Shown piece by piece: positions 615 to 40,800 of a stretch of 64,000 nucleotides of DNA (position 1 is its first letter; every line of letters begins with the position of its first letter). Under the pieces are notes generated by a model, which was not told the DNA's origin, did not search any database, and was given only the letters and a program-made list of their open reading frames with translations. The position numbers were made by a program, and so were the translations under genes. Origin of the DNA: Prevotella sp. (GTDB lineage Bacteria > Bacteroidota > Bacteroidia > Bacteroidales > Bacteroidaceae); contig JAFSKJ010000022.1 in assembly GCA_017449025.1 (NCBI GenBank), positions 1 through 64,000 on the forward strand, given 5' to 3'.

Positions 615-1442
615 TTAACGGCTTTTCGAAATGAATAGGCTGGTGATATGACTCAATGGCGTCGTGCCGTCGGTCACACGCTCCATAATCATCCAGTCGG
701 TGCGGTAGTCGATATGTTCTTCCACAGCAATGCGGTCTTTCGTCAACCACTTCACTTGTTGGGTCTTGTTGCCGACCTTGTAGGACTTCTTGCCGTTGTA
801 TTCAATCTTGTCAACGCCTCCACTGGTTCCTCCTGCTATCATCGTCCAGTCATTGGGCGCGAAGATGACGAAGCTGTTGAAGTATTTGCTCGTAGGATAC
901 TGCTCGTGCAGCTTGGGCAGTTCTTTCTTGACATCGCGCAGTTCGTCCACGTAGCCGATGAAGCGCCATGTGCCTGTCAGGGGATTCGCCGCATCTACCT
1001 CAGCCTTGCCCGTCAGCGCGTCGAAGAAAATCTTGCTCATCTCCGTGTATGTGTCGGACTCATACTTCTCAATGCACCAGTCGTTCTTGGGGAAATGTAG
1101 GTGGCTTGTGTATGTGCTCCACCACTTCATCTTGAACTGCTTGGCGTTGCTGTCATAGATGAGCGTGCTCTTGTCATCCTCAGACTTTGGCTGCTCTCCC
1201 GTGTAGTTGAACACCCGATGGTCGTTGTCGCTGATGTTGAAGAAGGCGGCTCGCGCCGATACCATGAGCGTCACGCTGTCGGTGCAGATTTTGTACTGTT
1301 CAAAGGGGGCTTTCACCTCGCCCAACTTGCCCGTGAGCGTGGTCATCTTGTAGATGCCGCGCGGGTTCTCCGTCTGGGCGTTCGTTAAGATTGACAGGGA
1401 AACAAGTGCTGCTGCCATCAGCATTTTCATTGTACTTTTCAT
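615..1442 (-). CDS. Secreted lipocalin-like hypothetical protein
   Basis: A 275-residue protein with a signal peptide (hydrophobic MLMAAALVSLSILTNAQ). Two halves look related in layout: residues about 25-140 (NPRGIYKM... start) and about 152-265 (NPLTGTWRFIGY start). The GTW opening and alternating strands resemble the lipocalin-like DUF families of Bacteroidales secreted proteins; this is inference from pattern only. Translation may start at residue 1 or at the Met at residue 5. The gene has an unusually long leader (1443-1736) sharing blocks with those of the genes at 23043 and 30037, which suggests common regulation. Function unknown. Confidence 0.75.
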   Translation of the reverse strand: MKSTMKMLMAAALVSLSILTNAQTENPRGIYKMTTLTGKLGEVKAPFEQYKICTDSVTLMVSARAAFFNISDNDHRVFNYTGEQPKSEDDKSTLIYDSNAKQFKMKWWSTYTSHLHFPKNDWCIEKYESDTYTEMSKIFFDALTGKAEVDAANPLTGTWRFIGYVDELRDVKKELPKLHEQYPTSKYFNSFVIFAPNDWTMIAGGTSGGVDKIEYNGKKSYKVGNKTQQVKWLTKDRIAVEEHIDYRTDWMIMERVTDGTTPLSHITSLFISKSR

Positions 1443-1767
1443 TGCTTTTTAATATAGTGGGATAATAAGTCTGACTATCAGTCTGAGGCCCTGGAATTGC
1501 CGTTGTCACATAACGATACAATAGTCCACGCCTCAAGGTATGATTATCATCATCAACAAAGACGAAGGAGCATAATACACCCATTGTGAACGCTATTGCA
1601 TATCGTCCGTGACATGAAGCTTTCCAGGTTTCAGAACTGGGACAAATACGCGCTAAACGCTCATCTTCTAAAGTTGAGAAGCCTTTATAGCGTAGTGCCG
1701 CGCTGGGCACTGCTTGGAATCTCGGCGACAAAAATACTAAAAAAAACCGAAGGTGCAAAACTTTCGG
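1443..1767 (-). promoter_or_regulatory. Long conserved leader with palindromic promoter, copy A
   Basis: Read on the minus strand. A palindrome (1767-1747, CCGAAAG...CTTCGG) holds a TTTG -33 box (1759-1756), then exactly 19 bases, then TATTTTTG (1736-1729). About 287 bases separate the -7 box from the ATG. The leader contains a perfect short hairpin (AGTGCC/GGCACT, 1711-1694), the block GGGTGTATTATGC (1582-1570) and the block ATACCTTGAGGCGTGG (1541-1526). The same order of blocks recurs upstream of the genes at 23043 and 30037; the first 65 or so bases after the -7 box are almost identical to those of the 30037 leader. Confidence 0.7.
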
Positions 1768-1827
1768 CGGATTATTTATTAGGGAATAATGTGAAGAAAT
1801 TTGTATGAAGCGGCAGTAATTGGCATT

Positions 1828-22345: not shown

Positions 22346-22509
22346 CGTGACGCTAAAAGCGTCTTCGCTCATTAACCGTAGTGTCCGAAGGACCTGCGGG
22401 AAAATGAAGGCTGCGAAATGCACTCTGAAAGAGTGCCCCAACGACATAAATGGGAAGCCCCCAACCCCCTAAAGGGGGAACTACAGACTCTGCATGAACT
22501 CCCCCTTCA

Positions 22510-22550
22510 GGGGGTTGGGGGGCTGGGGGCTGGGGGTTGGGGGTTGGGGG
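22510..22550 (+). other. G-rich tract with quadruplex potential
   Basis: Six runs of five or six G are separated by TT or CT. An inverted pair CCCCTAAAGGGGG and CCCCCTTCAGGGGG lies just upstream. Confidence 0.65.
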
Positions 22551-22632
22551 ACTCCCTGGTCATACAGCGGGTCAACCGTAGGTCGAATGTTTTTCAGTAG
22601 GGACTATAAATAATAGATGTTCCCAAAAAATA

Positions 22633-23042
22633 ATCCGCCGAAAGTTTGGAACTTCCGGCGGATTTTCGTATCTTTGTCGCCGATTCGTGTTAGCCCGGAA
22701 GGGCAGGCGGGTCGGAACTTATTGGAAACAGGACGTTTACGGACGTTATCTTCTGATGTAGAATCTCGCAAATTCAAGCCAAGAAGAAACGCAACCAGAG
22801 ACGTCCGCGTTGGGTGTATTATGCCCTGTTGCCTTATACATTATTATATGTGATGGTGGCAGAATTGTATAATACCTTACGGCGTGGGCTAACTCGAGTT
22901 GCTTATCCTTGGCAAGGCAATGCGAGAGCCCTACATCGGGATAGGCGAGAAGTAGAGACACCCACGTCTTTCGCATTTATCAGGGCGATACATTTAATCA
23001 CGCTGAATCTGGGTGGCTATAGGCAGAAAAAACCAACTACAA
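22633..23042 (+). promoter_or_regulatory. Long conserved leader with palindromic promoter, copy B
   Basis: The palindrome at 22633-22663 (ATCCGCCG / CGGCGGAT, 14-base arms with one mismatch) contains TTGG (22646-22649), followed by 19 bases and TATCTTTG (22669-22676). The leader is about 365 bases and holds GGGTGTATTATGC (22812-22824) and ATACCTTACGGCGTGGGCT (22872-22890). The first 54 bases are identical to those of copy C; the middle differs. Confidence 0.72.
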
Positions 23043-25391
23043 ATGAAAAACCTAAAACATTATTATGTTGTCGGAGCAATGGCTGTTGCGTCATTCCTGT
23101 TGTCATCGTGTGCCAAGGACTTCCAGGATGACATTGACAAGCTGAACACTAAAGTAGACAACATCGACACACGTGTGACAAAGCTTGAAGAGCAAGTGAC
23201 AAAGATTAATAGCGAGCTGTCGACACTGTCCGTACTTGCCACGGCAGTAGAGAAAGGATTCTATGTGACAGACGTTAAGGACACCAGCGAGGGCTGCGAG
23301 CTGACACTCAGCAACGGCCGCAAGGTATCCTTGCAGAACGGCCCCGACAACTCGCTCACCCCCTCTCCCGCATTGAGCATGACGCAGGTGAACGGAGTGT
23401 ATTACTGGACCATGAACGGCATGCTCATCACAGGTACCGACGGCAAGCCCATCGCCGCCACGGGAATGACGCCCAAGGTGAAGTACGACAGTGCCACCCA
23501 GCAGTGGTTGCTCTCCATCGACGGCGGGCGTACCTATCAGATGGTGAATGTCTACGCCCAGTTCATCATCAACGAGCAGGTGCTGTCACAAATCATCAAC
23601 AACTATATCAGCCAGAACCAGACCACCTTAATCAGTAACGAGGTGCTGCAGCAGATAATCAGCAACTACATCACCAACAACTACTCCACCCTGTTCGATA
23701 CCAACATACTGAACCAGGTGATAGTGAACTACGTGCAGAACAACTACTCGAACATCTTTTCCGTGGACGTGCTGAACAACATCTTCCAGAAATACATCAG
23801 CGAGCACTCAAGCCAGATTATCGACGTTGACGTGATGACGAATATCATCCTGAACTTCATAGAGCAGAACCCGACAATCTTTGTCAACAACGAGATACTG
23901 TACAAGATTCTCGTCACCTATATAGAGCAGAACCAGACCACCATCTTCAAGAACGAGCTTCTGCTTCAGGTCATCAACAATTTCATTGCCAACTACAACA
24001 ACGTCATCAACGTTGAGATGCTGCGGCAGATCATCAACAACTACATAGAGTTGCACCAGGACGTAATCGTCGACAACACCGTCATACAGAACGTGCTCAT
24101 ACAGTATGTGCAGAAATACTACCTGCAGATCTTCACAACAGAAATCCTCTATCAGGTTATCAACAACTACATTCAGCAGAACCAAACCACCATCTTCAAC
24201 GACATACTGCTGAAGCAGGTCATCTCCACATACATTGAGAACAACTACAACACGTTCATCTCCGACGAGGCCATCTACAACATCATCAGCAAATACCTTG
24301 AAATAAACTACACCACAATCATCAACGAGGAGACGCTCTACAAGGTCATCTACAATTACTTCCAGCAGAACTACAACCTCTTCATCGATGAAACCATCAT
24401 CATGAACGTCATCAACCAGTACATTGAGAAGCACCAGACAACGATCATCGATATTGACATCGTCCGCAACATTGTGAACACTTACGTAGAGCAGAACATC
24501 TACAACATCTTCAGCGTGGAGATACTCACACAGATTATCACCAACTACTTCTCCACCCACCAGACCATCATCAACCAGTACACCATCATCAACAATGTTG
24601 TTATTGAGGGTGACTATATCAACATCACCCTCTACACTGGCGAGGTTATTAAGCTCGTTATCTACGACAGCTACGCCCGCATACGCGACCGAGTGCAGAG
24701 CATAGTCTTTGTGCCAGTATATACAGATGGGAAAATACATTATAGTTATGACAAGAGCGACAATATATTGTTTAACATAACATATTATGTGTCTCCTGCA
24801 TCTATGGCTTCGATTATAGCGCAGAAATATAATACTAAGACTATGGGCATGAACATGCTGGCCACAGTCTACTCATCTGGAGGAAATGGAATGGCAACCA
24901 ACGTTGTATCAATTTCCAACGTCACAGGAGAAAGTAGCGGACTTATGAGAGTTACTGCCACTGCCCCATATAGTTACCTGACAGATACAAGGTATATCTA
25001 TTCGTTGGCACTACACGTGACTGACACCAATACAGGTGGCACCGACTACACTACTGACTTCACGCTTCTGTACAAGGATACCTCTCACGATGTTCATTAT
25101 GATTATTACTATGACCAGAAGCTGTTAGGCACATGGTATCAGTCAAACAAACTGACCGCAAACTACGAATGGTCATTCTCATCTGACGGAACATGCACGT
25201 ATAGCAGAACTCCTTTGTTGGGAAAGACAACTACAGAAACAGGAAAATGGTATTGTTATGGAAACTATCTCTATGTCTATATTGGAGAAGACACAGAAAT
25301 GTTCACATATACTGTAGATGGTAATATACTTGTTCTCAGCCTGTATTCAGGAACAAATGAAAGGGCTGCCGGAGAGTTTAATAGGCAATAA
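23043..25391 (+). CDS. Surface lipoprotein with DUF4988-like coiled coil and sixteen 21-residue repeats
   Basis: A 782-residue lipoprotein (signal ending LLSSC). A short coiled coil follows (DIDKLNTKVDNIDTRVTKLE), typical of the N-terminus of Bacteroidales surface proteins of the DUF4988 type. Residues about 175-513 consist of sixteen tandem units of 21 residues (one of 20). The common pattern is two or three polar residues, two hydrophobic, Q/N, two hydrophobic, xNYI, then about five polar residues and two hydrophobic, for example ISNEVLQQIISNYITNNYST. The C-terminal 90 residues begin KLLGTWYQSNKL and look lipocalin-like. The region after about 24740 is richer in A and T than the repeat part. 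Function unknown; a repetitive stalk or fibre is an inference. Confidence 0.82.
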   Translation: MKNLKHYYVVGAMAVASFLLSSCAKDFQDDIDKLNTKVDNIDTRVTKLEEQVTKINSELSTLSVLATAVEKGFYVTDVKDTSEGCELTLSNGRKVSLQNGPDNSLTPSPALSMTQVNGVYYWTMNGMLITGTDGKPIAATGMTPKVKYDSATQQWLLSIDGGRTYQMVNVYAQFIINEQVLSQIINNYISQNQTTLISNEVLQQIISNYITNNYSTLFDTNILNQVIVNYVQNNYSNIFSVDVLNNIFQKYISEHSSQIIDVDVMTNIILNFIEQNPTIFVNNEILYKILVTYIEQNQTTIFKNELLLQVINNFIANYNNVINVEMLRQIINNYIELHQDVIVDNTVIQNVLIQYVQKYYLQIFTTEILYQVINNYIQQNQTTIFNDILLKQVISTYIENNYNTFISDEAIYNIISKYLEINYTTIINEETLYKVIYNYFQQNYNLFIDETIIMNVINQYIEKHQTTIIDIDIVRNIVNTYVEQNIYNIFSVEILTQIITNYFSTHQTIINQYTIINNVVIEGDYINITLYTGEVIKLVIYDSYARIRDRVQSIVFVPVYTDGKIHYSYDKSDNILFNITYYVSPASMASIIAQKYNTKTMGMNMLATVYSSGGNGMATNVVSISNVTGESSGLMRVTATAPYSYLTDTRYIYSLALHVTDTNTGGTDYTTDFTLLYKDTSHDVHYDYYYDQKLLGTWYQSNKLTANYEWSFSSDGTCTYSRTPLLGKTTTETGKWYCYGNYLYVYIGEDTEMFTYTVDGNILVLSLYSGTNERAAGEFNRQ

Positions 25392-25683: not shown

Positions 25684-26526
25684 ATGGAAGGAAAATACCT
25701 GGATCCGAAGGCTGACCTGACCTTCAAGCTGATCTTCGAGCACGAGGATTTGCTCATAAGTCTGCTCAATGCCCTGCTGCCGCTCGACGAGGGCAAGCAG
25801 ATAGAGCATGTAGAGTACCTGCCTACCGAGCTGGTGCCCGAGAACCCGGGGAAAAAGAACAGCGTGGTGGACGTCCGCTGCCGAGAGACAGGTGGCCGCC
25901 ACTTCATAGTGGAAATGCAGCTGAACTGGAACAACGAGTTCCGCCACCGCGTCATCCTCAATGCTGCCAAGGCGGTGGTGAAGCAGCTGAACCCCGGCGA
26001 GGAGTTCAAGCTCATACAGCCCGTCTATTCGCTGAACCTTATCAACGACGTGGGTTTCGATGCCGGCCCCGACGAGTTCTACCACGACTATGCCATCGTC
26101 GATGTTGCACATGCCAACCGGCACATTGAGGGCCTCCGCTTCGTGTTCATAGAGCTGCCCAAGTTCAAGCCTAAGACCATTGCCGAGCGTAAGATGGCGG
26201 TGCTGTGGCTCCGCTTCCTCACGGAGATAAACTCTTCAACGAAAGAGGCACCTGCCGAGCTGCTGGATAATCCCGACACTGCAAAGGCCCTGAAACTTTT
26301 AGAGAAGTCGGCCTATAGCGAGGGGCAGTTAGAGGCTTACGACCGCTTCTGGGATGCCGTCTACCGCGAACGAGTCTTTTATAACGACGGGTTCAAGAAA
26401 GGACAGGCGGAAGGCATAGAAGAGACCAATCGCAAGAATGCCCGCAAGATGAAGGCCAAAGGTTTTGCAACAGAAGACATCGCTGAGATTACCGGCCTCA
26501 CCGCCGAAGAGATTGACAGGCTGTAA
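25684..26526 (+). CDS. Rpn family PD-(D/E)XK nuclease/putative transposase
   Basis: A complete 280-residue protein, MEGKYLDPKADLTFKLIFEH. Catalytic pattern: Asp63 in SVVDVRC, Glu77 and Gln79 in HFIVEMQ. The C-terminus has a charged helix and ends GFATEDIAEITGLTAEEIDRL, typical of this family in Bacteroidales. Related E. coli RpnA proteins are DNA endonucleases that raise recombination. The last part of the gene together with its downstream flank (26492-26575) is repeated exactly at 29521-29604. A truncated paralogue lies at the left edge of the window. Confidence 0.88.
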   Translation: MEGKYLDPKADLTFKLIFEHEDLLISLLNALLPLDEGKQIEHVEYLPTELVPENPGKKNSVVDVRCRETGGRHFIVEMQLNWNNEFRHRVILNAAKAVVKQLNPGEEFKLIQPVYSLNLINDVGFDAGPDEFYHDYAIVDVAHANRHIEGLRFVFIELPKFKPKTIAERKMAVLWLRFLTEINSSTKEAPAELLDNPDTAKALKLLEKSAYSEGQLEAYDRFWDAVYRERVFYNDGFKKGQAEGIEETNRKNARKMKAKGFATEDIAEITGLTAEEIDRL

Positions 26527-28500: not shown

Positions 28501-28716
28501 GAATCACGGGGACAGGTTTGATTCTTCCTGCAATAAATGAGGATCTATATCCGTTAATAATATGAGAACGAGCATTGTTCATTCTTATATGCCGAGAATC
28601 GGAAGAAGAATCACGGGGACAGGTTTTTGATTCTTCCTGCAATAAATGAGGATCTATATCCGTTAATAATATGAGAACGAGCATTGTTCATTCTTATATG
28701 CCGAGAATCGGAAGAA
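28501..28716 (+). repeat. Tandem duplication of the RAYT left end (107 and 109 bp)
   Basis: Two successive copies run from GAATCACGGGGACAGG to GAATCGGAAGAA; the second has two extra T in the T run. The duplication includes the short upstream ATG reading MRTSIVHSYMPRIG. Confidence 0.93.
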
Positions 28717-29492
28717 TTCAGAGCGGGACAGGCATCTATCATGTCATGCTGAGAGGCATCAACCGCCAAGATCTTTTTGAAGAGCCTGATGACTATTGGG
28801 CTTTCATTAGGGTGTTGTCTGCCCTGCCTCAGAGGAAATCCGTCGTTACTTCTTTTCCAGTATGTACATGTCATATCTATGCCTACTGTCTGATGCCCAA
28901 CCACGTCCATCTTCTTGTTTGTGAGAAGGACTGGAAAGTTGGTGAGATAGTGAAGTCTATCGCCTCAAGTTACGCTTTTTACTATAACAAGAAGTATGGC
29001 CGTGTAGGCCATCTTTTTCAAGACCGTTTTAGAAGTGAGCCATGTAACGATGCCGCTTATTTTATAACCTTATTCCGCTATATCCATCAGAATCCTGTAA
29101 AAGCAGGACTGGTCGACGAGGCACGAGCTTATGAGTATAGTAGCTGGGGAAACGACTATCTTGGTTTGTCTGACCACCAGGTTTGCTACAAACAGGCTGC
29201 CATCAACAGATATGGCATGGATGAGCTTTCCGCTTGGGTAGAAATGCCTTTGTCCGGGGAAGTTGACTGCCTAGACATAGAAAATAAAAGGATTGTGGCC
29301 GACGAGACAATACGTCAAATGATTCTTGAGAAGAGTGGGACGAAGAATCTGACAGAGTTCCGACTCCATTCAAAGGAGAGACAGAAAAACATCATCCGTG
29401 ATGTTATGTTGAAGTTGGACGCTGGCCCTCGCCAATTATCACGTGTTAGTGGACTTCCCTACTCAATCGTCTATAAGCTAAAAAAGTTATGA
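28698..29492 (+). CDS. REP-associated tyrosine transposase (Y1_Tnp/HUH)
   Basis: About 264 residues from MPRIGRIQSGTGIYHVMLRG, the usual family start; an in-frame ATG at 28671 lies within the duplicated end. The HUH motif is HVH in YCLMPNHVHLLV, followed by a Tyr-containing helix region (SSYAFYYNKKYGRVGHLFQDRF) and FRYIHQNPVKAGLV. A C-terminal helix-turn-helix-like part is present (GPRQLSRVSGLPYSIVYKLKK). The family processes REP-type hairpins. The gene appears intact. Confidence 0.88.
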   Translation: MPRIGRIQSGTGIYHVMLRGINRQDLFEEPDDYWAFIRVLSALPQRKSVVTSFPVCTCHIYAYCLMPNHVHLLVCEKDWKVGEIVKSIASSYAFYYNKKYGRVGHLFQDRFRSEPCNDAAYFITLFRYIHQNPVKAGLVDEARAYEYSSWGNDYLGLSDHQVCYKQAAINRYGMDELSAWVEMPLSGEVDCLDIENKRIVADETIRQMILEKSGTKNLTEFRLHSKERQKNIIRDVMLKLDAGPRQLSRVSGLPYSIVYKLKKL

Positions 29493-29632: not shown

Positions 29633-30036
29633 ATCCGCCGAAAGTTTGGAACTTCCGGCGGATTTTCGTATCTTTGTCGCCGAGATTCCCAGCAGTGCCC
29701 AGCGCGGCACTGCGCTACAAAGGTTTCTCAACTTTGCGGAAGGCCATGAAGGCTTATGCTGGAATGGCCTGACAACGAGAGCGTTTAACGCATGATTGTC
29801 CCAATTCTGAACGTGGAAAATTCGAGTGCTGGATAATATGCAATAACGTTCACGTCTGTAGGTGTATTATGCATCTTCACTTATGGTGAGGGATGATTAT
29901 ACCTTTGGGCGTGGACTATTGTATGATTATAGCACAAAGGTAATTTCCACGACCCAGAATTGATAATGTACAACATTGTCCACGCTCTTTGTGCGGGTAA
30001 ACAAAATTCATTTACAACAATTAAAAACATAAGACT
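29633..30036 (+). promoter_or_regulatory. Long conserved leader with palindromic promoter, copy C
   Basis: The palindrome is at 29633-29663 and TATCTTTG at 29669-29676; about 360 bases of leader precede the ATG. It includes a perfect hairpin (CAGTGCC/GGCACTG, 29693-29712), GGTGTATTATGC (29861-29872) and ATACCTTTGGGCGTGGACT (29899-29917). GCGTGGAC of the last block can pair with GTCCACGC about 70 bases downstream. Confidence 0.75.
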
Positions 30037-30984
30037 ATGAAGAAAAGATTATTATTAATTATTATTTGTTCCATTATAATTGGAATGCAAAAAGTTGGTG
30101 CTCAGATTGCTAAGGTCGCTTTGTCACACAACGGAAACATTACGATGTATAACGCCGAGGAACTACAGACGGCTATTGACGCATCGGTTGATGGGGATAC
30201 GCTGTTCTTGAATGAGGGAACGTTTAGTGGAGGTATTACCATTTCAAAAAAAATATCTTTGATAGGGGCTGGTGACAAAACTGTTATAAGTGGTAATCTC
30301 TACATTTCATTAACAGGAAAACTAACATCAAGAATGCTTGATGCCATCAATATAAGCGAAAAATTATATGTTAGCAGTGATAGTAATGATCTCCTTGATG
30401 GATTAATTATTAGAAAATGTGTGTTTAAGTCATTTGATACGGGGACATCACTTACCAATGCTATAATAGACAGATGTTATCAAACAAATGTGGAATATTA
30501 TTTATATCATTACTTTAAAGTAAGTTCAAATTTCAAACATTCTAATGTGATAAAAGTTGTTAATTCCGTTATTGGCTGTTATCATGGTTATGATGCAACA
30601 ATAAACAATACCATTTTTGTTAACTGTAATGTTAAATCTGGTTATGCTTATGATAAAAGTACTAGCAATAAAGCAACCTTTTATAATTGCATTGTTGACA
30701 ATTTTTATTCAAAAGCCAATTTTTCAAATAGTCAGTTTATATATTGTTACTTAAAAATTGATTCTGGAACAACTCAAAATTGTCAGTTTGGAACAATAAC
30801 ATGGGATGGGGTTAATTGTACTTCAACAAACATGCTTGGCCAAGACGGTACTCCTGTGGGAATCGACGGCGGTACTACACCTTATACTCTTGTTCCCACC
30901 ACTCCCAAGATGGAAAGCTTTGATTTGAAAGTGGACACTCAGAGCAAAAAGCTAAATGTGAACATTAAAATGACTGCCAACTAA
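30037..30984 (+). CDS. Secreted right-handed beta-helix-like protein
   Basis: A 315-residue protein with a signal peptide (MKKRLLLIIICSIIIGMQKVGAQ). It begins with the pattern of parallel beta-helix proteins (LQTAIDASVDGDTLFLNEGTFSGGITISKKISLIGAGDKTVI) and continues with short Asn-rich strands. It ends with a linker and a small tail (KMESFDLKVDTQSKKLNVNIKMTAN). Its coding sequence is much richer in A and T than the neighbours, a sign of different origin. It stands behind long leader C and 13 bases before the C10 protease gene. The ligand or activity is unknown. Confidence 0.72.
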   Translation: MKKRLLLIIICSIIIGMQKVGAQIAKVALSHNGNITMYNAEELQTAIDASVDGDTLFLNEGTFSGGITISKKISLIGAGDKTVISGNLYISLTGKLTSRMLDAINISEKLYVSSDSNDLLDGLIIRKCVFKSFDTGTSLTNAIIDRCYQTNVEYYLYHYFKVSSNFKHSNVIKVVNSVIGCYHGYDATINNTIFVNCNVKSGYAYDKSTSNKATFYNCIVDNFYSKANFSNSQFIYCYLKIDSGTTQNCQFGTITWDGVNCTSTNMLGQDGTPVGIDGGTTPYTLVPTTPKMESFDLKVDTQSKKLNVNIKMTAN

Positions 30985-30997
30985 AAAAGGGAGAGAT

Positions 30998-33900
30998 ATG
31001 AGACGTCTATTATTACAAACCTTGTTGTACTTGGCGGCTACCATCGGCATTTCTGCCCAAAGCCTCAGGTGCTATGATTATTGGATAGATTCTGACTATA
31101 GTAAGCATACCTTTGTAAATAGTAGCAATACCGATATTAGCCTGTCAATAGCAACCAATGACCAGGCGGCAGGTGCACATGTGTTGAATTTCCGCGCCCA
31201 GAATAGCAACGGCGAATGGGGTCCAGTCAACCGAATGCTTTACGTCATTCAAGAGAATGCCGAGCAGGTTGCCCAAAGCCTCAGATACTACGAATATTGG
31301 ATTGACTCCGATTATGGTAATCGAACCTTTGTGAATAGTAGCAATACAAATGTCAGCCTTTCAATATCAACCAATGCGCAGTCCGCTGGGGTATATGTGC
31401 TAAACTTCCGCGCCCAAAACAGCAACGGCGAGTGGGCTCCTGTCAACCGTATGCTTTACGTCATTCCAGAGGAAGCCGAGCTAGTTGCTGAGACAAATGT
31501 TGTGGAGTATTGGATGGACGAAGACTTCTCTACGCATAGGACAGAAAAAGTAAATGTCATCGATAACACGATATTGTTAGGCATCACGATTTCTCGCCTT
31601 TCTGAAGGAACACATACACTCAACATTAGGGCAGGAAATTCTAACGGTGAATGGAGCAGTATCTCTCGTTTGCTTTTCTATGTACCGGAATTCCCAAATT
31701 CTGGCGGTGACGATTCCACTGATGATATCATTTCCTTTGCCGATGCCGAAGTGAAGAGAATCTGTGTACAGGATTGGGACACAGACGGCGATGGCGAATT
31801 GTCGAAAGCTGAAGCTGCGGCGGTAACAGACCTGGGAGAAACGTTCTGGGGACAATCAGAGGTGCGTTCTTTTGAGGAGTTGCAGTACTTCACTGGCCTT
31901 ACTTCCATTGGCTACGAAGCCTTCAATGGATGCAGCAGCCTTTCCTCCATAGTCATTCCTAATACAGTCACGTCTATCGGCACTTCTGCTTTCATCGGCT
32001 GTAGTAGTCTTTCTGCTATCACCATACCAAAGTCTGTTACATCCATTGGCGATGGATTATTCCAAGGATGCAGCGCTTTGACCAGCATTGTCGTGGAAAA
32101 CGGTAATACAGTATATGACTCCAGAGACAACTGCAATGCCATCATCGAAACCAGCACTAACAAGTTGATTGCCGGATGCAAGACAACAACTATCCCCGGC
32201 TCGGTGACAGCTATCGGTAAGTATGCCTGCCAGAGCAGTGGTCTTACATCCGTAGTCTTACCCAATTCGGTAGTGAGCATTATGGGGTGTGGCTTCCGCC
32301 GCTGTTACAACCTCACTTACGTAGAGATACCCGGAAGCGTTACCTCTATTGACGACCGTGCATTTGCCGAATGCACCAGCCTGATGGAAGTATACTGCTA
32401 TATTCAAGAGCCATTTGCAATCAACAGCAGTGTCTTTAGCTATATCTCTTCTGACGCTACCCTCTACGTGCCAGCTGGCACCAAATCGAAATATGAGTCA
32501 ACCACTGGATGGAGTGCGTTTAAGAACATCGTGGAGATGGGGGCTGGAGGAACATATTCAGCCATCACACCGATGGTGACAGCCTCGTGGCATCAGAAGT
32601 CGCCGTTCAACGACGAGTGTCCTGACGGTGCTGCTGCCGGCTGCGGCGCTGTGGCAGTAGCCCAGATACTTAACTACTATAAAAAGCCGGAGCATGGCTA
32701 CGGACACGTCACATACAACAGTGAAGATGTGGATTTCGAAGCCAACCCCATTGCCTGGGGCAGCATACGTGATGTGTATGGCACTAGCTCTACCGATGCA
32801 GAGCGGGCAGCTGTAGCCCGACTCGTACACCAAGTGGGGGCAGCCATGAAGATGCAGTATGGAAGCAGCTCGTCGCCTGCCAACCGCGCGTCGATGATGT
32901 GGGGCCTGCAGCACTACCTGCACTTCTCGCCATTGTCGCGTTACCGCTATCGCCGCTATTACTCCACTGAGCAGTGGCTGCGCATGCTCGACAGCGAGCT
33001 TGAGGCTAAACGCCCGGTGTTCTACCGCGGCGACCACAGCTCCTTCGAGAAAGCACTGGCAGGACATATCTTCGTAATCGACGGGCGCGACAGCGAGGGG
33101 CGCTATCACTTCAACTTCGGACATGCCAGCAGCACGCAGGACAAGTATGCAAGCCTGAATATCATAAACCAGGGCACGGAGAACTTCATTGGTCGGAAGT
33201 CGAACGGCAGTGACAACGCTGCATACGACTACTGTCAGGCAATGATAACATCGTTCTTCCCTGTCGACGGCCTCACCGATGCCGACTATGACGCAGCAAA
33301 CATAATGATTACCAAACCGATGGTGATTGATGGCGACAGGACACCACGCACGGTCAGCATGACAGGTTCGGTCACCATCTCGTTCCAGTTCCAGTATGTC
33401 AGCTTCACAGCAGGCTCCATACAATACAGCATCGGTTTCTACCAGAACGGGATTCTGAAAGGTGTGTCAACAACCACCCGCACTGCAACCCTGAGCGACG
33501 GCGGGCGTGGGATAAACGCCACAGACCGCACATTCTCGCTTCCAACGGGTCTCGCCAACGGCGAATATGAAATGGCGGTGGTGTCGCGTACCGACAGCAG
33601 CGCACCATGGCTGCGCGCCTGGGACAGCGCACCAAACAGCATACCTGCAACGGTGAATGGCAGCACGTTCACATTCAGCATACCAAGCTTCCACGACGGC
33701 GAGACAAACCTCAGGCTGCAAGCAGAGCCGACAATAGTCAGCGATGGAGTTGTTGAGTTCACCGTGGTTAACTCGTCTGAAAACAACTTTGAAGGCACAA
33801 TCAAGGTTACGTGCGGCGACACGGAGAACTCCCTTCTTACTGCAGTCTACGAGGGGCAGAGCGTAACTTACCGCTTCCCAATCGGCAGCAACAGCACCGA

Positions 33901-34747
33901 CGGCTTGACTATATCGTATCTGGCAGACGGCTCGGAGCAGTGGCTGTCATTAAATAGCAATGGGTTCTTGCTCGGCGACATCAATTTAGACGGCGAGGTA
34001 GACGGTACCGACCTTGTGCTGCTGACAAACATGATAATGACCAACGACAGTTCGAACAAGATAGCCGACATGAACAGCGACGGCGAGGTGGACGGCACGG
34101 ACTATGTGCTTATGGTGAACAAGATCATGGGCTTTACAAGCGTACGCAGGGAAACGGCAGGGGCAGACACCGACATAGCCAACACCAGCATCACGGCAGA
34201 ACCTATAGCCGTCAGGGCAGGGGAAAGCACCACGCTGACCATAGCAATGGATAACCCCGAGCAGGCGGTGACACTGGTACAGATGGACATAACGCTGCCG
34301 AAGGGACTGACATTGGATAATAACGACAACTTTGACAACATGGACAACCACGGTGTTATGATGGCCGGACGTACCTCATGGCGCAACCACACGCTGATGG
34401 CAAATGACCTGGGCGACAGGACGCGCCTGCTGTTGGCCTCGGCTACAAACGAGGTGATTGCGGGTGCTCATGGTGGCATAATAACTCTAACGCTGAAGGC
34501 CGACGAGGACTTCCGTGGCGACGACATCGTGCTCAGCAACATAATCTGTACGAGTCCCGATGCCGCTACAGCACGACCCAATGACTACGTGATGCACCTT
34601 GGAGGTGACGCTACGGGCATTGCGGAGGTTGCAAATGGAACGTCGAAGAAGGAGGTCTCTGCCTACGACTTGTCAGGCAGACGCATAGGCACTTCTGTCA
34701 AGAAGAAAGGAGTGTACATCGTTGGCGGACGGAAGGTTGTTAAGTAA
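30998..34747 (+). CDS. Multidomain secreted C10 cysteine protease with LRR_5, dockerin-like and cohesin-like parts
   Basis: A 1249-residue protein with a signal peptide. In order: three repeats of about 65 residues (YDYWIDSDY, NFRAQNSNGEW); an EF-hand-like loop (DWDTDGDGELSKAEA) at about 255; BspA-type LRR_5 repeats at 290-495 (YEAFNGCSSLSSIVIPNTVT); a streptopain-type C10 protease at 515-770 with Cys549 (AAGCGAVAVAQI) and His690 (GHIFVIDGRD); a beta region; a dockerin-like pair of calcium loops at 991-1046 (GDINLDGEVDGTDLVLL and DMNSDGEVDGTDYVLMV); a cohesin-like domain at about 1060-1210; and a C-terminal tail (YDLSGRRI...KKKGVYIVGGRKVVK). It is probably exported and held at the cell surface. 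Operon with the neighbours is likely. Confidence 0.85.
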   Translation: MRRLLLQTLLYLAATIGISAQSLRCYDYWIDSDYSKHTFVNSSNTDISLSIATNDQAAGAHVLNFRAQNSNGEWGPVNRMLYVIQENAEQVAQSLRYYEYWIDSDYGNRTFVNSSNTNVSLSISTNAQSAGVYVLNFRAQNSNGEWAPVNRMLYVIPEEAELVAETNVVEYWMDEDFSTHRTEKVNVIDNTILLGITISRLSEGTHTLNIRAGNSNGEWSSISRLLFYVPEFPNSGGDDSTDDIISFADAEVKRICVQDWDTDGDGELSKAEAAAVTDLGETFWGQSEVRSFEELQYFTGLTSIGYEAFNGCSSLSSIVIPNTVTSIGTSAFIGCSSLSAITIPKSVTSIGDGLFQGCSALTSIVVENGNTVYDSRDNCNAIIETSTNKLIAGCKTTTIPGSVTAIGKYACQSSGLTSVVLPNSVVSIMGCGFRRCYNLTYVEIPGSVTSIDDRAFAECTSLMEVYCYIQEPFAINSSVFSYISSDATLYVPAGTKSKYESTTGWSAFKNIVEMGAGGTYSAITPMVTASWHQKSPFNDECPDGAAAGCGAVAVAQILNYYKKPEHGYGHVTYNSEDVDFEANPIAWGSIRDVYGTSSTDAERAAVARLVHQVGAAMKMQYGSSSSPANRASMMWGLQHYLHFSPLSRYRYRRYYSTEQWLRMLDSELEAKRPVFYRGDHSSFEKALAGHIFVIDGRDSEGRYHFNFGHASSTQDKYASLNIINQGTENFIGRKSNGSDNAAYDYCQAMITSFFPVDGLTDADYDAANIMITKPMVIDGDRTPRTVSMTGSVTISFQFQYVSFTAGSIQYSIGFYQNGILKGVSTTTRTATLSDGGRGINATDRTFSLPTGLANGEYEMAVVSRTDSSAPWLRAWDSAPNSIPATVNGSTFTFSIPSFHDGETNLRLQAEPTIVSDGVVEFTVVNSSENNFEGTIKVTCGDTENSLLTAVYEGQSVTYRFPIGSNSTDGLTISYLADGSEQWLSLNSNGFLLGDINLDGEVDGTDLVLLTNMIMTNDSSNKIADMNSDGEVDGTDYVLMVNKIMGFTSVRRETAGADTDIANTSITAEPIAVRAGESTTLTIAMDNPEQAVTLVQMDITLPKGLTLDNNDNFDNMDNHGVMMAGRTSWRNHTLMANDLGDRTRLLLASATNEVIAGAHGGIITLTLKADEDFRGDDIVLSNIICTSPDAATARPNDYVMHLGGDATGIAEVANGTSKKEVSAYDLSGRRIGTSVKKKGVYIVGGRKVVK

Positions 34748-34803: not shown

Positions 34804-37800
34804 ATGAAGACGAGAAAGATTAAGCAGATAATAATGGCAGTGGTGGCTTTGATGGCACTGCTGCCAATGAGGAGCATGGCAGCCTCGGCCACCCTGTCGA
34901 TAGAGGACTTCACCATCAAGGGCGGTGAGACTAAGACAATGCTCATCGATGTGAACAACGCTGACATGCAGGTGACACTGGTGCAGTTCGACATGCGCCT
35001 GCCGCAGGGGCTGTCGGTGGCTATGAAAGACGGCGACTACGCTATTGACATAGCTGGGCGCACCACGTATAAAAAACACTCCGTCAGCGTCAACCTGATT
35101 GACGGCCTGTTGCGCGTGATGCTACATTCAAGCAACAGGGAAGTACTCAGTGGCACAAGTGGTGCCGTGCTCGGCGTCACTCTTACTGCAGCCTCCGGCT
35201 TCAGCGGCGGCAAAATACAGTTGGAGAACATAAAGATTGTGGCTCCCGACGCAAGTGCTACGACAAGCAAGCCTGGCACATATATATATAATGTGTCGGA
35301 TGCCGTCACCCTGACGGCGAAGAGCTACACCCGCCAGTATGGTGAGGCGAACCCCACGTTTGGCTATGAGGTGACGAGCGGAACAATCACGTCTGGCACA
35401 CCGACAATAACATGCTCGGCCACGGCGACATCACCCGTGGGTACATACGACATCGTCATTGCAAAGGGTTCGGTGACGAATGGCACGATGAACCTTGTGA
35501 AGGGAACGCTGACCATCACCAAGGCTCCGCTGACCATCAGTGCAGGCAGCTACACGAAGGTGGAGGGCGAGGCCAACCCCACATTCACCCCGACCTTCAG
35601 CGGATTCAAGAACGGTGAGACGAAGAACGTGCTGACAAAGCAGCCCACCATCACCTGCACGGCCACGACAGCCTCAACACCCGGCAGCTATCCCGTAACC
35701 GTCAGCGGTGCCGAGGCCCAGAACTACAGCATCAGCTATGTCAATGGCACACTGACCGTGACGGCAAAAGTCGTACCTGAACCCTACGCTGTGCTAAGCG
35801 ACGACGGAAAGACCGTGACATTCTACTATGATGGGAAGAAAGCCAGCAGAGGGGGAGTTGGCATCAATAATAGCGACTCAAGTGCTCCCTACGCAACCGC
35901 CACAACTGCCGTCATCGATGCTTCGTTTGCCGACTACCGTCCTATCAGTACCGCCTACTGGTTCTACAAATGCTCTTCCTTAACCTCTATCACAGGAATA
36001 GATAACCTGCAAACAGACAATGTGACAAGCATGAGCTGCATGTTCTATAAGTGCTCCTGCATGACAAGCCTCAACTTGAGCGGGTTCAAGACCTACAACG
36101 TTACAAATATGTCCAACATGTTCTGGGACTGCTCCCGCCTAACGAGTCTCAACGTAAGCGGATGGAGCAACAACAAGGTGACGAGCATGAGCGAAATGTT
36201 CAGTGGCTGCTCCAACCTAACGAGTCTTGATGTGAGCGGCTTCAAGACCAATAATGTGACGGCCATGTTACGCATGTTCAATCGCTGCTCCAGCCTGACG
36301 AGCCTTGACGTGAGCGGTTTCAAGACCGACAACGTGACGAACATGAGCTACATGTTCAGTGGCTGCTCCAGCCTGACGAGCCTTGACGTGAGCGGCTTCA
36401 ATACCGACAACGTAAAGGACATGAGCGGCATGTTCAGTGGCTGCTCTGGTTTGACAAGCATTGAAGTGAGCGGATTCAAGACTGACAACGTAAAGGACAT
36501 GAGCGGCATGTTCAGTGGCTGCTCTGGTTTGACAAGCATTGAAGTGAGCGGATTCAGGACCGACAACGTGACAAACATGAGCTACATGTTCTCTTCTTGT
36601 TACAGACTGACGAGCCTCGACGTGAGCGGGTTCAAGACTGACAACCTGACGAACATGGGCAGCATGTTCATGTTTTGCTCCAGACTGACGACCCTTGATC
36701 TGAGCGGATTCAAGACCGACAAGGTGACGGACATGAGCTACATGTTCTGGGGCTGCCGCAGCCTGACGAGCCTTGACGTGAGTGGATTCAAAACCGACAA
36801 TGTGACGAACATGAAGAGCATGTTCTATAGATGTTCCGGCCTAACAAGCCTTGACGTGAGCGGATTCAAGACCAACAATGTGACGTACATGAACAACATG
36901 TTCTATGGCTGCTCCAGCTTGAAGACGATTTATGCCAGTGAAGAAAATTGGAGCACTGCCAATGTAACATCAGGAAACGATGTGTTCACTAGCTGCACCA
37001 GCCTCGTGGGTGGCAATGGTACGAAGTATGATGCAAACCACGTAGGTGTAGATTATGCCTGCATAGACAAGGAAGGACAGCCGGGGTATCTCACTGGCAA
37101 GAACAGCACTACTCCCGGCGGTGACGATGAGCCGACAGGAGCCTACGTCGTACAGGATGGTAGCACGCTGACGTTCTATTATGACGATGAGAGAGACAGT
37201 CGGACGGGTATTGTATATAGTTTGAAGCAAAAATATGAGGGCGGACCAGTTCTTATAATTAATAGCAGTAGAAAGAATGCTCCATCCCCATCCAACCAAT
37301 TCACAAATGACTTCCCTGAATGGACAAGCTCAACAAGCATTACCAAGGTGGTGTTCGACGATTCCTTTGCAAATTACACTCCAACAAGCACTGCTTACTG
37401 GTTCTTTAATATGAGCGAGCTTACAGAGGTTGAGCACATCGGTAATCTGAATACGGAGCAGGTAGTTGATATGAAATATATGTTTTACGAATGTTATAAG
37501 TTGAAGACTTTGAATCTGGGAGATTTCAAGACCGAAAACGTGACAGACATGTGCTGCATGTTCAATTACTGCTCCAGCCTGACAGAATTGAACGTCAGTA
37601 GTTTTAACACAGCAAACGTAACCTCTATGCGATTCATGTTTGCAGGCTGCGGCAGCCTTACCGATATTGATGTTAGCGGATTTGAGACAGCCAATGTTAC
37701 GGATATGACTTTTATGTTCCAGAATTGCAGCAAATTAGAAACTCTTGACTTGAGGAGTTTCGTTGTGCAGAAGGTAACGCGTTTTGACAAGATGTTCTCT

Positions 37801-40800
37801 GGCTGCACGTCGCTGAAGACCATCTATGCCAACACCGACTGGAAGAATCAGGAAAGCACTTCCACAAGCATGTTTGCAGGTTGCACCAGCCTTGTTGGCG
37901 GCAATGGGACAGTGTATGATGCCAACAACATTGAGCTTAGCTACGCCCATGTTGATGGCACTGGCGGCCCAGGCTACTTCACCTACAAGAATGGCAGCAA
38001 TATCAATTACACCGGTGGCACTATGGCCTACGCCGTACTGAATAGCGGAACGCTCACGTTCTACTATGATGACAAGCTACGGTCGCGCAGTGGGACGCTG
38101 TTTGAGGTAAAGGAGAAGGGCTATACCAAGAGCCAGACAGGGTCGAGGGGCAAACCCGACTGGTACTCCTATCGCAGCAGCATCACAAAGGCTGTGTTCG
38201 ACACAACGTTTGTTCATTTCATGCCTAAGGAGACCAATGGCTGGTTCTATGACCACTCAAAGCTCACCTCTGTCGAGGGGCTGGAAAACCTGAACACCTC
38301 TGAGGTGACCAGCATGTGGGGCATGTTCCGTTTCTGCGACAAGCTAAAAAGCCTCGACGTGAGCCACTTTGACACCAGCAAGGTGACGGACATGAGCTTC
38401 ATGTTCTGTTACTGCGAAAACCTCAGTAGTCTTGACGTTACCAACTTCAATACGGAGAATGTAACCATGATGGAACACATGTTCCACACCATACCAGTAA
38501 CCGAACTGGACCTGAGCAATTTCAACACTGCCAAGGTAACCGACATGAACACCATGTTCAGCATGTGCAAGAACCTGACAACCATCTATGCCAGCAGTCT
38601 GTGGAGCAAGGAAATGGTGAACAAAAGTATCGGCATGTTCAGCAATTGTAATGCCCTCGTCGGTGGCCAGGGCACCAAGATCACATCTCAGCATACCGAC
38701 AAGGAGTATGCCATCATTGACGGCGGCTCTGCTAATCCCGGCTATCTCACTGAGAGAGGTGCAACAATAATACCTGTAGTTCGAGAAGCATACGCCGCAT
38801 TAAGCGACGACGGAAAGACCGTAACATTCTACTATGATGGCAACAAAGCCAGCAGAGGAGGGCTAGATATTAACAGCAGACAACAATACCCCTCTTATAG
38901 CTCTGCGACAACTGCCGTCATAGATGCTTCATTTGCCGACTACCGTCCCACCAGCACCGCCTACTGGTTCTGCAAATGTTTATCACTAACTACCATCACA
39001 GGAATGGAGAACCTGCATACCGACAACGTGACGAACATGTATCGAATGTTCTATCGTTGCACCAGCCTGACGAGCCTTGACCTGAGCGGATTCAAGACCG
39101 ACAATGTGACGGACATGAGTTGGATGTTTTATGACTGCGCGAGTCTGATAAACCTTGACCTTAACAGCTTCAATACCAGCAATGTGACGGACATGCTCAG
39201 CATGTTCTCTTGCTGCTCTAAGCTGGAGAGCCTTGACGTGAGCGGATTCAAGACCGATAATGTGACAATTATTAGAGGCATGTTCAATGGCTGCTCTAAT
39301 CTGACGAGCCTTGACGTGAGCGGATTTAGGACCGACAAAGTGACAAGTATGGTCAACATGTTCCGTGGTTGTTCTAAGCTGACGAGCCTTGACGTGAGCG
39401 GATTCAAGACGGACAATGTGACGGACATGAGCGAAATGTTCTCTGGTTGCAAAAGCCTTACGAGTCTCAATGTAAGCGGATTCAAGACGGACAATGTGAC
39501 GAACATGACCGAAATGTTCCATGGCTGCTCTAAACTGGCGATCCTTGACGTGAGCGGTTTCAAGACCGACAACGTGACGAACATGAGTTATATGTTCAAT
39601 GGCTGTTCAAGCCTGACAAGCCTTGACGTGAGCGGTTTCAAGACCGATAGCGTGTTGAACATGGGCGGCATGTTCGGTGGCTGCTCCGGGCTGAAGAGCC
39701 TTGACGTGAGCGGATTCAAGACAGACAACGTGACGAACATGGGCAGCATGTTCTCTAACTGTTCCGGCCTAACAAGCCTTGACGTGAGCGGATTCAAGAC
39801 CGACAAGGTGACGGACATGAGCTACATTTTCTGGGGCTGCTCCAAGCTGACGAGCCTTGACTTAAGCGGATTAAATACCGGCAACGTGACGGACATGGGC
39901 TACATGTTCAAAGACTGCTCCAGCTTGACGAGCCTTGACGTGAGCGGATTCAAGACCGACAAAGTGACGGACATGAGATACATGTTCTATGGATGCTCTA
40001 ATCTGACGAGCCTTGACGTGAGCGGACTCAGGACCGACAACGTGACGGACATGAGCTATATGTTCAGAGGGTGCTCCAGCCTGACGAGCCTTGACCTAAG
40101 CGGGTTCAAGACCGACAATGTGACGAGAATGGAAAATATGTTCTATGGCTGCTCCAGCTTGAAGACAATTTATGCCAGTGAGGAGAATTGGAGCACAGCC
40201 AAGGTAACATCTTTTGGCGGCAGCGCCATGTTCACTGGCTGCACCAGCCTCGTTGGTGGCAATGGCACGAGGTTCGACGCATACCATGTAGGCGTGGAGT
40301 ATGCATGTATCGATGGCGTGGCAGACCAGCCAGGTTATTTAACAGAATCAGGAGCAGAACCTTGGATAAAGGAACCATACGCTGTGTTAAGTGACGAAGG
40401 GAAGACAGTGACTTTCTACTATGACGAGAACAAAGCCAGTAGAGGGGGAGTAGACATTAATAACAATTCTAATATGTCTTATAAGACTGCCACAACTGCA
40501 ATTATCGATGCTTCGTTTGTAGACTACCGCCCTACCAGCACTGCCGATTGGTTCCACCACTGTTCTTCACTGACCACCATCGCCGGAATAGAGAACCTGC
40601 AAACAGACAACGTGACGTACATGAGCGGCATGTTCTCTGGCTGCTCTAAGCTGACCAGCCTTGACGTGAGTGGATTCAAGACCGACAAGGTGGAATACAT
40701 GAGCTTCATGTTCTCTGGCTGCTCCAGCCTTACGAGTCTTGACCTGAGTGGATTCAAGACCGACAAAGTGAAGAACATGAACTGCATGTTCGTTTCCTGC

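Follow-up and report, generated by a model that had tools for sequence, protein, structure and literature searches.

Transcription attenuators of the trp type alternate between 1:2, 2:3, and 3:4 pairing of leader segments, with a U-rich stretch after segment 4, and they carry a leader peptide. The HIV-1 dimer initiation site and the RNAI/RNAII pair of ColE1 represent RNAs that proceed from a kissing-loop contact to an extended duplex. The leader RNA described here, which is present in a 64,000-nt stretch of Prevotella sp. DNA (the window, contig JAFSKJ010000022.1 of assembly GCA_017449025.1), can be compared with both. As in the trp-type attenuators, 1:2, 2:3, and 3:4 pairing can alternate between a promoter and a gene; a U-tract follows segment 4 in 23 of 23 copies outside the genus but in only 16 of 30 in a genus set. 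There is no leader peptide above chance, the 3:4 loop is 47 nt long, a segment 5 is added, and the genes controlled would not be those of one pathway. As in the HIV-1 and ColE1 RNAs, complementary loops could make a kissing contact that would then lengthen into a duplex, but both partners lie in one molecule, they would control downstream transcription, and the kissing itself is a prediction.

Structured RNAs of Bacteroidetes have been found by comparison before, and Weinberg et al. 2010 tabulates Rfam numbers for Flavo-1, Bacteroides-1, Bacteroidales-1, and Bacteroid-trp (PMC2864571). The leader RNA is akin to Flavo-1 and its kin in being a structured Bacteroidetes RNA found by comparison; as far as that table extends, these RNAs differ from it in having Rfam numbers (PMC2864571), whereas the leader RNA reaches no Rfam threshold. 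At the gathering thresholds of Rfam release 15, there were no matches in the window or in 20 loci of the genus, and 20 wider loci returned only two tRNAs and one tmRNA, all away from the RNA, in agreement with the initial annotation, which had called the family unlisted. Below threshold, His_leader aligned over the promoter palindrome of one window copy (copy C; 28.9 bits vs a threshold of 49) and Leu_leader aligned over the family member L161 (16.1 bits vs a threshold of 50), weak matches that are not evidence of membership. No description of the leader RNA was found in the open-access literature searched. Two palindromic candidate RNAs of human microbiomes, HMP_4078 and HMP2_4205 (109 and 132 bp), are likewise self-complementary and from Bacteroidetes, and HMP_4078 lies near phage integrase domains (PMC8040213). 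In the descriptions given there, the candidates have neither a two-state switch nor a link to cargo genes such as those proposed here for the leader RNA, and pieces of the leader family may be among the thousands of candidates that the source holds (PMC8040213). Since typical 5′ UTRs of Bacteroidota are short, with a median of 32 nt given for Bacteroides thetaiotaomicron (PMC7366714) and 24 nt for a flavobacterium (PMC9723704), leaders of ~300 nt with a conserved two-state fold stand out.

Judged by sequence comparison, the element is a leader RNA of ~200 nt found across many Bacteroidota genomes, where the genes that it precedes are numerous, unrelated, and mostly predicted to encode exported proteins. 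Two shapes are predicted for it, and by flipping from one to the other, the RNA would likely turn the downstream gene on or off.

Leader copies in the window and extent of the family

The initial annotation had placed three long leaders in front of unrelated genes for secreted proteins, and all three were confirmed in the sequence, at 1767-1443 on the minus strand (copy A) and at 22633-23042 and 29633-30036 on the plus strand (copies B and C). The sequence blocks that it described as common to them are real. In the 3.5-Mb assembly (81% complete), the only three sites at which ATACCTT lies 20-50 nt downstream of GTGTATTATGC are these leaders, and a backward-pattern control of this block pair occurs at none. 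All three copies fold better than dinucleotide shuffles (z of -3.3 for A, -5.0 for B, and -7.1 for C). Other details were borne out only in part: the palindromic promoter said to be shared is an exact 27-nt sequence in B and C, but A has only a diverged 24-nt version, and the early hairpin described as perfect in A and C is perfect in C but has one mismatch in A. The pairing proposed for C, of GCGTGGAC with GTCCACGC, turned out to be the co-varying segment 3:4 pair of the RNA family, and the pairing of GAGGC with GCCTC proposed for A is absent from the lowest-energy fold of A.

A fourth copy (D) lies on contig 72 of the same assembly, is 89% identical, and precedes a different exported-looking gene. 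With up to three mismatches permitted, the 27-nt palindrome, which encloses the -33 box position, was found at three sites in the assembly, all exact and each before copy B, C, or D. A related palindrome accompanies copy E (L009), from another species, and none was seen by eye in the other family members printed. The palindrome was rejected as a family-wide trait and is a local feature only. Upstream of B (22450-22600) and of D (L002), a similar repeat-rich stretch with CCCCCAACCCCCTAAAGGGGG-type blocks is visible by eye, as if promoter regions had been swapped between loci.

When folded together with RNAalifold, copies A, C, D, and E form one long hairpin of 59 pairs, and a covariance model (R1) was built from these four sequences. 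R1 gave 13 matches in its own genome at E ≤ 10, three of which are opposite-strand matches or fragments, and it recovered the diverged copy B, which had not been used to build it, at 42.3 bits and an E value of 3e-7. A refined model (R2) was built from 25 elements.

Copy C lies on the plus strand. Its palindrome, identical in B and D, surrounds the -33 promoter position at 29635..29661 and is followed by a -7 promoter box (TATCTTTG, 29669..29676) of a type enriched upstream across the family and by a 5′ hairpin domain, seen in the fold, that precedes the core (29682..29729). The family core with segments 1 to 4 spans 29777..29995 (217.6 bits with R1 and 144.6 bits with R2) and contains, in order, segment 1 (GAGCGTT, 29779..29785), a 5′ mini-hairpin (GAA..TTC, 29809..29823) whose loop can pair with that of a 3′ mini-hairpin, segment 2 (AACGTTCACG, 29845..29854), segment 3 (GGGCGTGGACTATTG, 29907..29921), the 3′ mini-hairpin (GGU..ACC, 29939..29954), and segment 4 (CAACATTGTCCACGC, 29971..29985), after which there is a weak U-rich stretch; a segment 5 is not visible. 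The gene behind it (30037..30984, plus strand) encodes 315 aa with a signal-peptide-like start and no Pfam match. Farther along the same strand lie genes for a 1249-aa protein with peptidase C10, BspA-type repeats, and dockerin (30998-34747) and for a 2277-aa protein with 14 DUF285 stretches (34804-41637), which may share an operon with the copy C gene. On the upstream side, a Y1-type (IS200-like) transposase gene (273 aa, 28671-29492, plus strand) ends ~140 nt before the copy C promoter.

Copy B, also on the plus strand, has its palindrome and -7 box at 22635..22676 and a diverged core at 22729..22977 (42.3 bits with R1 and 51.1 bits with R2), in which the four segments (22731-22736, 22800-22809, 22881-22889, and 22957-22968) carry compensatory changes of their own and the U-tract is weak. 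It is followed by a gene with a lipoprotein-like start and DUF4988 (23043..25391, plus strand), after which there is a gene for a PD-(D/E)XK nuclease family transposase (25684-26526, plus strand). Copy A, on the minus strand, has its diverged palindrome and -7 box within 1729..1770 (1747-1770 and 1729-1736, respectively) and a core at 1473..1664 (176.6 bits with R1); segments 1 to 3 and the long hairpin are clear, a convincing segment 4 is absent (a doubtful one lies at 1457-1468), and the gene behind it (615..1442, minus strand) encodes 275 aa with a signal-peptide-like start and no Pfam match. The window copies are genuine members of the family, but they are not the best examples of the terminator proposed below.

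A BLAST search with copy C had found similarity in 3 of 100 related genomes, its own included, implying a species-specific RNA, a view that the covariance models overturned. With the own genome counted in each case, R1 has matches in 146 of 398 congeneric genomes (E ≤ 0.1), while R2 has matches in 139 of 393 genomes sampled evenly across the order (E ≤ 0.001), spread over 82 of 206 genera, and in 21 of 296 genomes sampled across the phylum. At most six candidates were scored per genome in the order scan, so copy numbers from it are lower bounds. That 275 of the 296 phylum genomes have no match, and that promoter, ATG distance, and U-tract hold in the matches, provides a check on the rate of false matches. 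In named genomes, a DNA pattern picked out 60 stretches, 57 of which have an R2 match (the three without one being L198, L239, from Micavibrio, and L243). Among the matching records is Prevotella histicola, whose element is identical to one in the genus set and thereby points to Prevotella, in the taxonomy used, as the genus of the window's genome. The others include Bacteroides cellulosilyticus, B. timonensis, three Capnocytophaga records, two Flavobacterium species, Parapedobacter, and five records labelled Fibrobacter or Fibrobacterales. With hundreds of further matches to a covariance model, the prospect raised with the initial annotation, that no further copies would be found, does not hold, and it is apparent from these comparisons that the three leaders belong to a large RNA family reaching far beyond Prevotella. 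Two matches sometimes lie close together, as in L175, where they stand in tandem before one gene, and on contig 8 of G687 (72496-73057), where they are ~370 nt apart.

Pairing segments and two alternative folds

The core holds segments 1 (GAGCGTT), 2 (AACGCTCACGC), 3 (GCGTGGGCTATTG), and 4 (CAATAGTTCCCACGC), which can pair in two alternative ways, either as separate 1:2 and 3:4 hairpins or with 2:3 atop one long hairpin. In copies outside the genus, a segment 5 located a few tens of nt before the ATG can pair with segment 4. Pairing was assessed with a swap test, in which each segment, excised using the model alignment, was scored against its own partner and against the partners of all other elements (5000 permutations). 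The genus alignment drew on 100 loci of 118 elements (the 18 omitted were 11 near-duplicates and 7 divergent elements); all but L053 were placed, and removing redundancy reduced these 99 to 57. A second set comprised 23 of 29 loci from outside the genus and 30 of 33 genus loci.

Among the 57 copies, z was -9.2 for 1:2, -10.5 for 2:3, and -11.9 for 3:4, and it was -7.8 for an inner pair, TTATCC:GGATAA, with 0 of 5000 permutations reaching any of these values, while five control combinations fell between -0.5 and +1.6. The 23 copies from outside the genus gave -6.5 for 1:2, -5.7 for 2:3, -5.5 for 3:4, -8.2 for the inner pair, and -5.6 for 4:5, against -0.6 to +1.1 for four of five controls and -1.5 for the fifth, 3:5 (319 of 5000 permutations). 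Pairing of 4:5 was weaker in the genus set of 30 (z -3.1). Segments 1 and 4 could also form a closing pair, with z of -4.1 in the 57 copies (0 of 5000), -2.2 in the 23 from outside the genus, and -0.5 in the 30 from within it; given this weak support, and only partial support in a further check, 1:4 was rejected as a main helix. The copies had been found with models that hold the long hairpin, which makes the tests of its arms and of 2:3 partly circular, whereas 1:2, 3:4, and 4:5 are not model pairs.

The covarying stems that the initial annotation had proposed to test for are evident both in the four sequences behind R1, where 16 of the 59 pairs have double changes, and in an alignment of 25 elements made from sequence only. 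In the latter, 91.5% of cells are paired in the two-hairpin state, with double changes in 14 pairs, and 94.1% are paired in the long hairpin, with double changes in 20 of 32 pairs; neither state was reached by any of 500 shuffles, and sliding the partner by 1-3 columns lowered pairing to 30-54%. As the compensatory changes exceed both shuffled and slid controls, the element qualifies as a conserved structured RNA. Two small hairpins mirror each other within it, GAAAU/AUUUC on the 5′ side and GGY/RCC on the 3′ side. Pairing in the 3′ mini-hairpin reaches 90.7%, but a single one of the three pairs changes from one paired type to another, and shuffles do as well on two of five measures. The loops of the two are complementary (CUGGAC and GUCCAG), and we infer that they could kiss before zipping up.

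Wobble pairs offer a view of which strand folds. Each strand was aligned to its partner's reverse complement in such a way that G.U and A.C counted alike as mismatches, and on the gene-sense strand, G.U outnumbered A.C in the arms (265:92) and in 1:2 (47:8), 2:3 (87:7), 3:4 (59:11), and 1:4 (49:11). The arms and 2:3 are part of the search model, which favours G.U, while 1:2 and 3:4 lie outside it. Outside the genus, the ratios were 29:3 for 2:3, 16:2 for 3:4, and just 7:4 for 1:2, and 4:5 was without asymmetry (9 G.U and 7 A.C), so it is the swap test that carries the case for 4:5. The asymmetry points to the gene-sense strand as the one that would fold, although by this measure alone, folded single-stranded DNA would look the same as RNA. 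A U-tract (at least 5 T in 7 nt) directly follows segment 4 in all 23 copies outside the genus and in 16 of 30 in the genus set; in the window, it is weak in B and C and absent in A. It is the U-tract and the promoter together that argue for RNA rather than folded DNA.

Predicted energies are in line with the two states. Among 53 copies, folding the 5′ half separately gives 1:2 as the optimum in 51 and folding the 3′ half gives 3:4 in 52, while the optimum for the whole is the long hairpin with 2:3 in 52, more stable by ~14 kcal/mol on average with kissing not counted. These energies imply two well-defined folds, one able to form during synthesis and one favoured at equilibrium. The loop of the 3:4 hairpin has a median length of 47 nt, and in a pattern scan of one short member, the sole terminator-like site was the 2:3 stem with a U-rich tail of its own on the sense strand; 3:4 was not reported as terminator-like in the scan of that member. 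Short ORFs in the leader numbered 69 of 80 vs 71.1 expected from shuffles, at scattered positions, and a leader peptide with control codons was therefore rejected.

Promoter, genes behind the RNA, and mobile islands

The -7 promoter box of Bacteroidetes has the consensus TAnnTTTG. Of 57 non-redundant elements, 51 have such a box in the 200 nt before the core. A control window contains one in 8 of 55 cases, shuffles predict 7.1, and in only 3 of 49 elements does a box lie between the core and the start codon. Outside the genus, the upstream box is present in 18 of 23 elements (4 of 21 in the control). As far as sequence can tell, this agrees with the initial annotation in placing transcription starts at the distant boxes rather than next to the ATG. 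A same-strand ORF follows 111 of 118 genus elements at a median of 79 nt past the core (interquartile 71.5-95); outside the genus, the start codon lies at a median of 59 nt past segment 4 (interquartile 57-102), and the median from TAnnTTTG box to ATG is 307 nt (44 copies). With a promoter upstream and a same-strand gene at a narrow distance, the RNA occupies the position of a 5′ leader, and with distance, strand, and promoter all held, a stand-alone repeat element was rejected.

The next gene tends to encode an exported protein. By a crude hydropathy rule, a signal-peptide-like start was called for 84 of 111 genus genes when only the first ATG was used (85 of 111 with later start codons permitted), for 35 of 52 in the non-redundant set, and for 19 of 23 outside the genus, against a background of 107 of 344 ORFs of at least 100 aa and 125 of 440 of at least 50 aa. 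Among the genes examined behind the RNA are those for BspA-type leucine-rich repeat proteins, DUF4988 lipoproteins, an outer-membrane barrel, a CsgG-like protein, and a type IX secreted protein, and many are without a Pfam match. The tendency toward exported genes thus stands, but control of surface proteins, as originally worded, is too narrow a description, given that acyltransferases, a TerB-like protein, an XRE-type regulator, and a cytosine methylase are also found behind the RNA, and the regulation itself is putative. One subfamily precedes short XRE-type helix-turn-helix genes with nearly the same N-terminus (L060, L062, L063, and L071), and a copy on contig 31 of the own genome (L050) precedes a cytosine-5 DNA methylase gene.

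A subset of the elements lies on islands. Comparison with two query proteins placed a serine recombinase gene before 17 elements and a tyrosine recombinase gene before 6. When only elements with 1.4 kb or more of upstream sequence are counted, such genes precede 8 of 37 genus elements, 2 of 22 from the order, and 2 of 45 from named genomes. The recurrent island order is DUF3871, recombinase, promoter and RNA, and variable cargo. When islands are compared in pairs, the similarity of the DNA in many cases extends from the recombinase across the RNA and ends ~220-250 nt past the core start, just before the cargo ATG; where the cargo is alike, similarity continues into it. A circular 15.5-kb record of B. 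finegoldii carries an integrase, DUF3871, a recombinase, the RNA (169 bits), and a lipocalin gene. R2 matches are also present on records filed as plasmids, L257 and L258 (Parabacteroides distasonis), L259 (Bacteroides finegoldii), and L260 (a Chryseobacterium shandongense plasmid), where the genes behind the RNA are small function-unassigned genes, a DUF5640 gene, or a gene for a type IX secreted protein, and stretches similar to the RNA occur in two unannotated human-faecal phage records (MT835917 and MT837480). No arrays of the RNA were found: twenty regions, none longer than 20 kb, contained a single strong match apiece, and there were two weak extras (28.2 and 23 bits). A relative of the Y1 transposase lies upstream only of window copy C, one of 37 genus elements with 1.4 kb of upstream sequence, and a RAYT-type mobile palindrome was accordingly rejected. 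Behind a recombinase on such islands, the leader is probably a ready-made expression port for exchangeable cargo genes.

A proposed switch, its alternatives, and implications

The initial annotation had seen in the leaders a family of cis-regulatory RNA, a reading to which covariation, further copies, and the position of promoter and gene lend support and under which regulation would be the function. We propose, with moderate confidence and from sequence comparison, that the RNA is a transcription attenuator for the gene behind it, working through five co-varying segments that would pair in two exclusive ways; the layout follows from the two folds, with 3:4 and the U-tract as the terminator and 2:3 as the antiterminator. 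Transcription would start from the upstream TAnnTTTG box, and the 5′ half would fold first, as 1:2. The mini-hairpin loops CUGGAC and GUCCAG would then kiss and zip into the long hairpin with 2:3, which would free segment 4 to pair with segment 5 and let polymerase continue (ON). A signal that holds the 5′ half as 1:2 would instead allow 3:4 to form against the U-tract and stop transcription before the start codon (OFF). We infer the assignment of the ON state, and the direction of control is uncertain in view of the long 3:4 loop and of the pattern scan that named 2:3 rather than 3:4. A loop of ~47 nt is unusual for an intrinsic terminator, and this, together with a U-tract in only 16 of 30 copies of the genus set, counts against the attenuator, as do the weak U-tracts of window copies B and C, the missing segment 4 of copy A, and the absence of strand asymmetry in 4:5. 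The mixed genes behind the RNA speak for a general physiological cue or factor as the trigger rather than a single metabolite; no sensor or trigger was found.

Much of the same evidence can be read in other ways. Were the RNA always to run through, 4:5 or 3:4 pairing could hide or free the stretch before the start codon, and control would be translational. The location of segment 5 a few tens of nt before the ATG, its co-variation with segment 4 outside the genus (z -5.6), and the narrow start codon distance would all suit such a switch, which, however, needs no U-tract, yet 23 of 23 copies outside the genus have one after segment 4; as no segment 5 is seen in copy C and 4:5 is without strand asymmetry, we regard a translational switch as rather unlikely. 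The U-tract at the 3′ end, the RNA's own promoter box, and its strong structure are also what an independent trans-acting small RNA with its own promoter and terminator would have, the adjacent gene then being a chance neighbour. This appears quite improbable: a same-strand gene stands behind 111 of 118 elements at an interquartile distance of 71.5-95 nt from the core end, signal-peptide-like starts are far above background, and 46 of 49 elements have no promoter box between RNA and gene.

The two remaining readings we consider very unlikely. An ordinary metabolite riboswitch with a ligand not yet recognised would employ conserved, mutually exclusive 5′-leader folds such as these, but the genes examined behind the RNA share no pathway and suggest no ligand, no Rfam riboswitch was found at threshold, and the two-state pairing itself accounts for several invariant bases. 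The islands bring to mind instead a single-strand DNA recombination site of the attC kind, at which a recombinase would swap cargo genes and the hairpin would act as DNA. The recombinase gene, of the serine or tyrosine kind, that immediately precedes some elements, the DNA similarity that crosses the RNA in many island pairs and ends just before the cargo start codon, the circular record with integrase, DUF3871, recombinase, RNA, and lipocalin gene, and a wobble-pair asymmetry that would fit a folded single DNA strand as well all speak for such a site. Against this, the core sites RYYYAAC/GTTRRRY occur in 0 of 53 outer ends (0.1 expected by chance), there are no cassette arrays, most copies have neither queried kind of recombinase within 1.5 kb, and the promoter, the U-tract, and the distance to the ATG favour RNA; with core sites and arrays absent, an attC/integron site was rejected.

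The earlier reading of a cis-regulatory family is extended by the two-state design of the RNA, by its reach past Prevotella, and by the tie to variable cargo in a subset of copies. More tentatively, it is possible, although doubtful, that a strand-exchange switch in which kissing hairpins zip up is found phylum-wide as the standard expression port of Bacteroidota mobile islands, composed of recombinase, promoter, switch RNA, and exchangeable exported-protein cargo. If the port reading is true, newly captured genes would come at once under the same RNA control. If the family works as proposed, mobile islands could use it to make their cargo genes follow the state of the host cell. It would then represent an RNA switch common among bacteria of the gut and mouth and would open a way to study the on-off control of accessory surface proteins in Prevotella and related bacteria.
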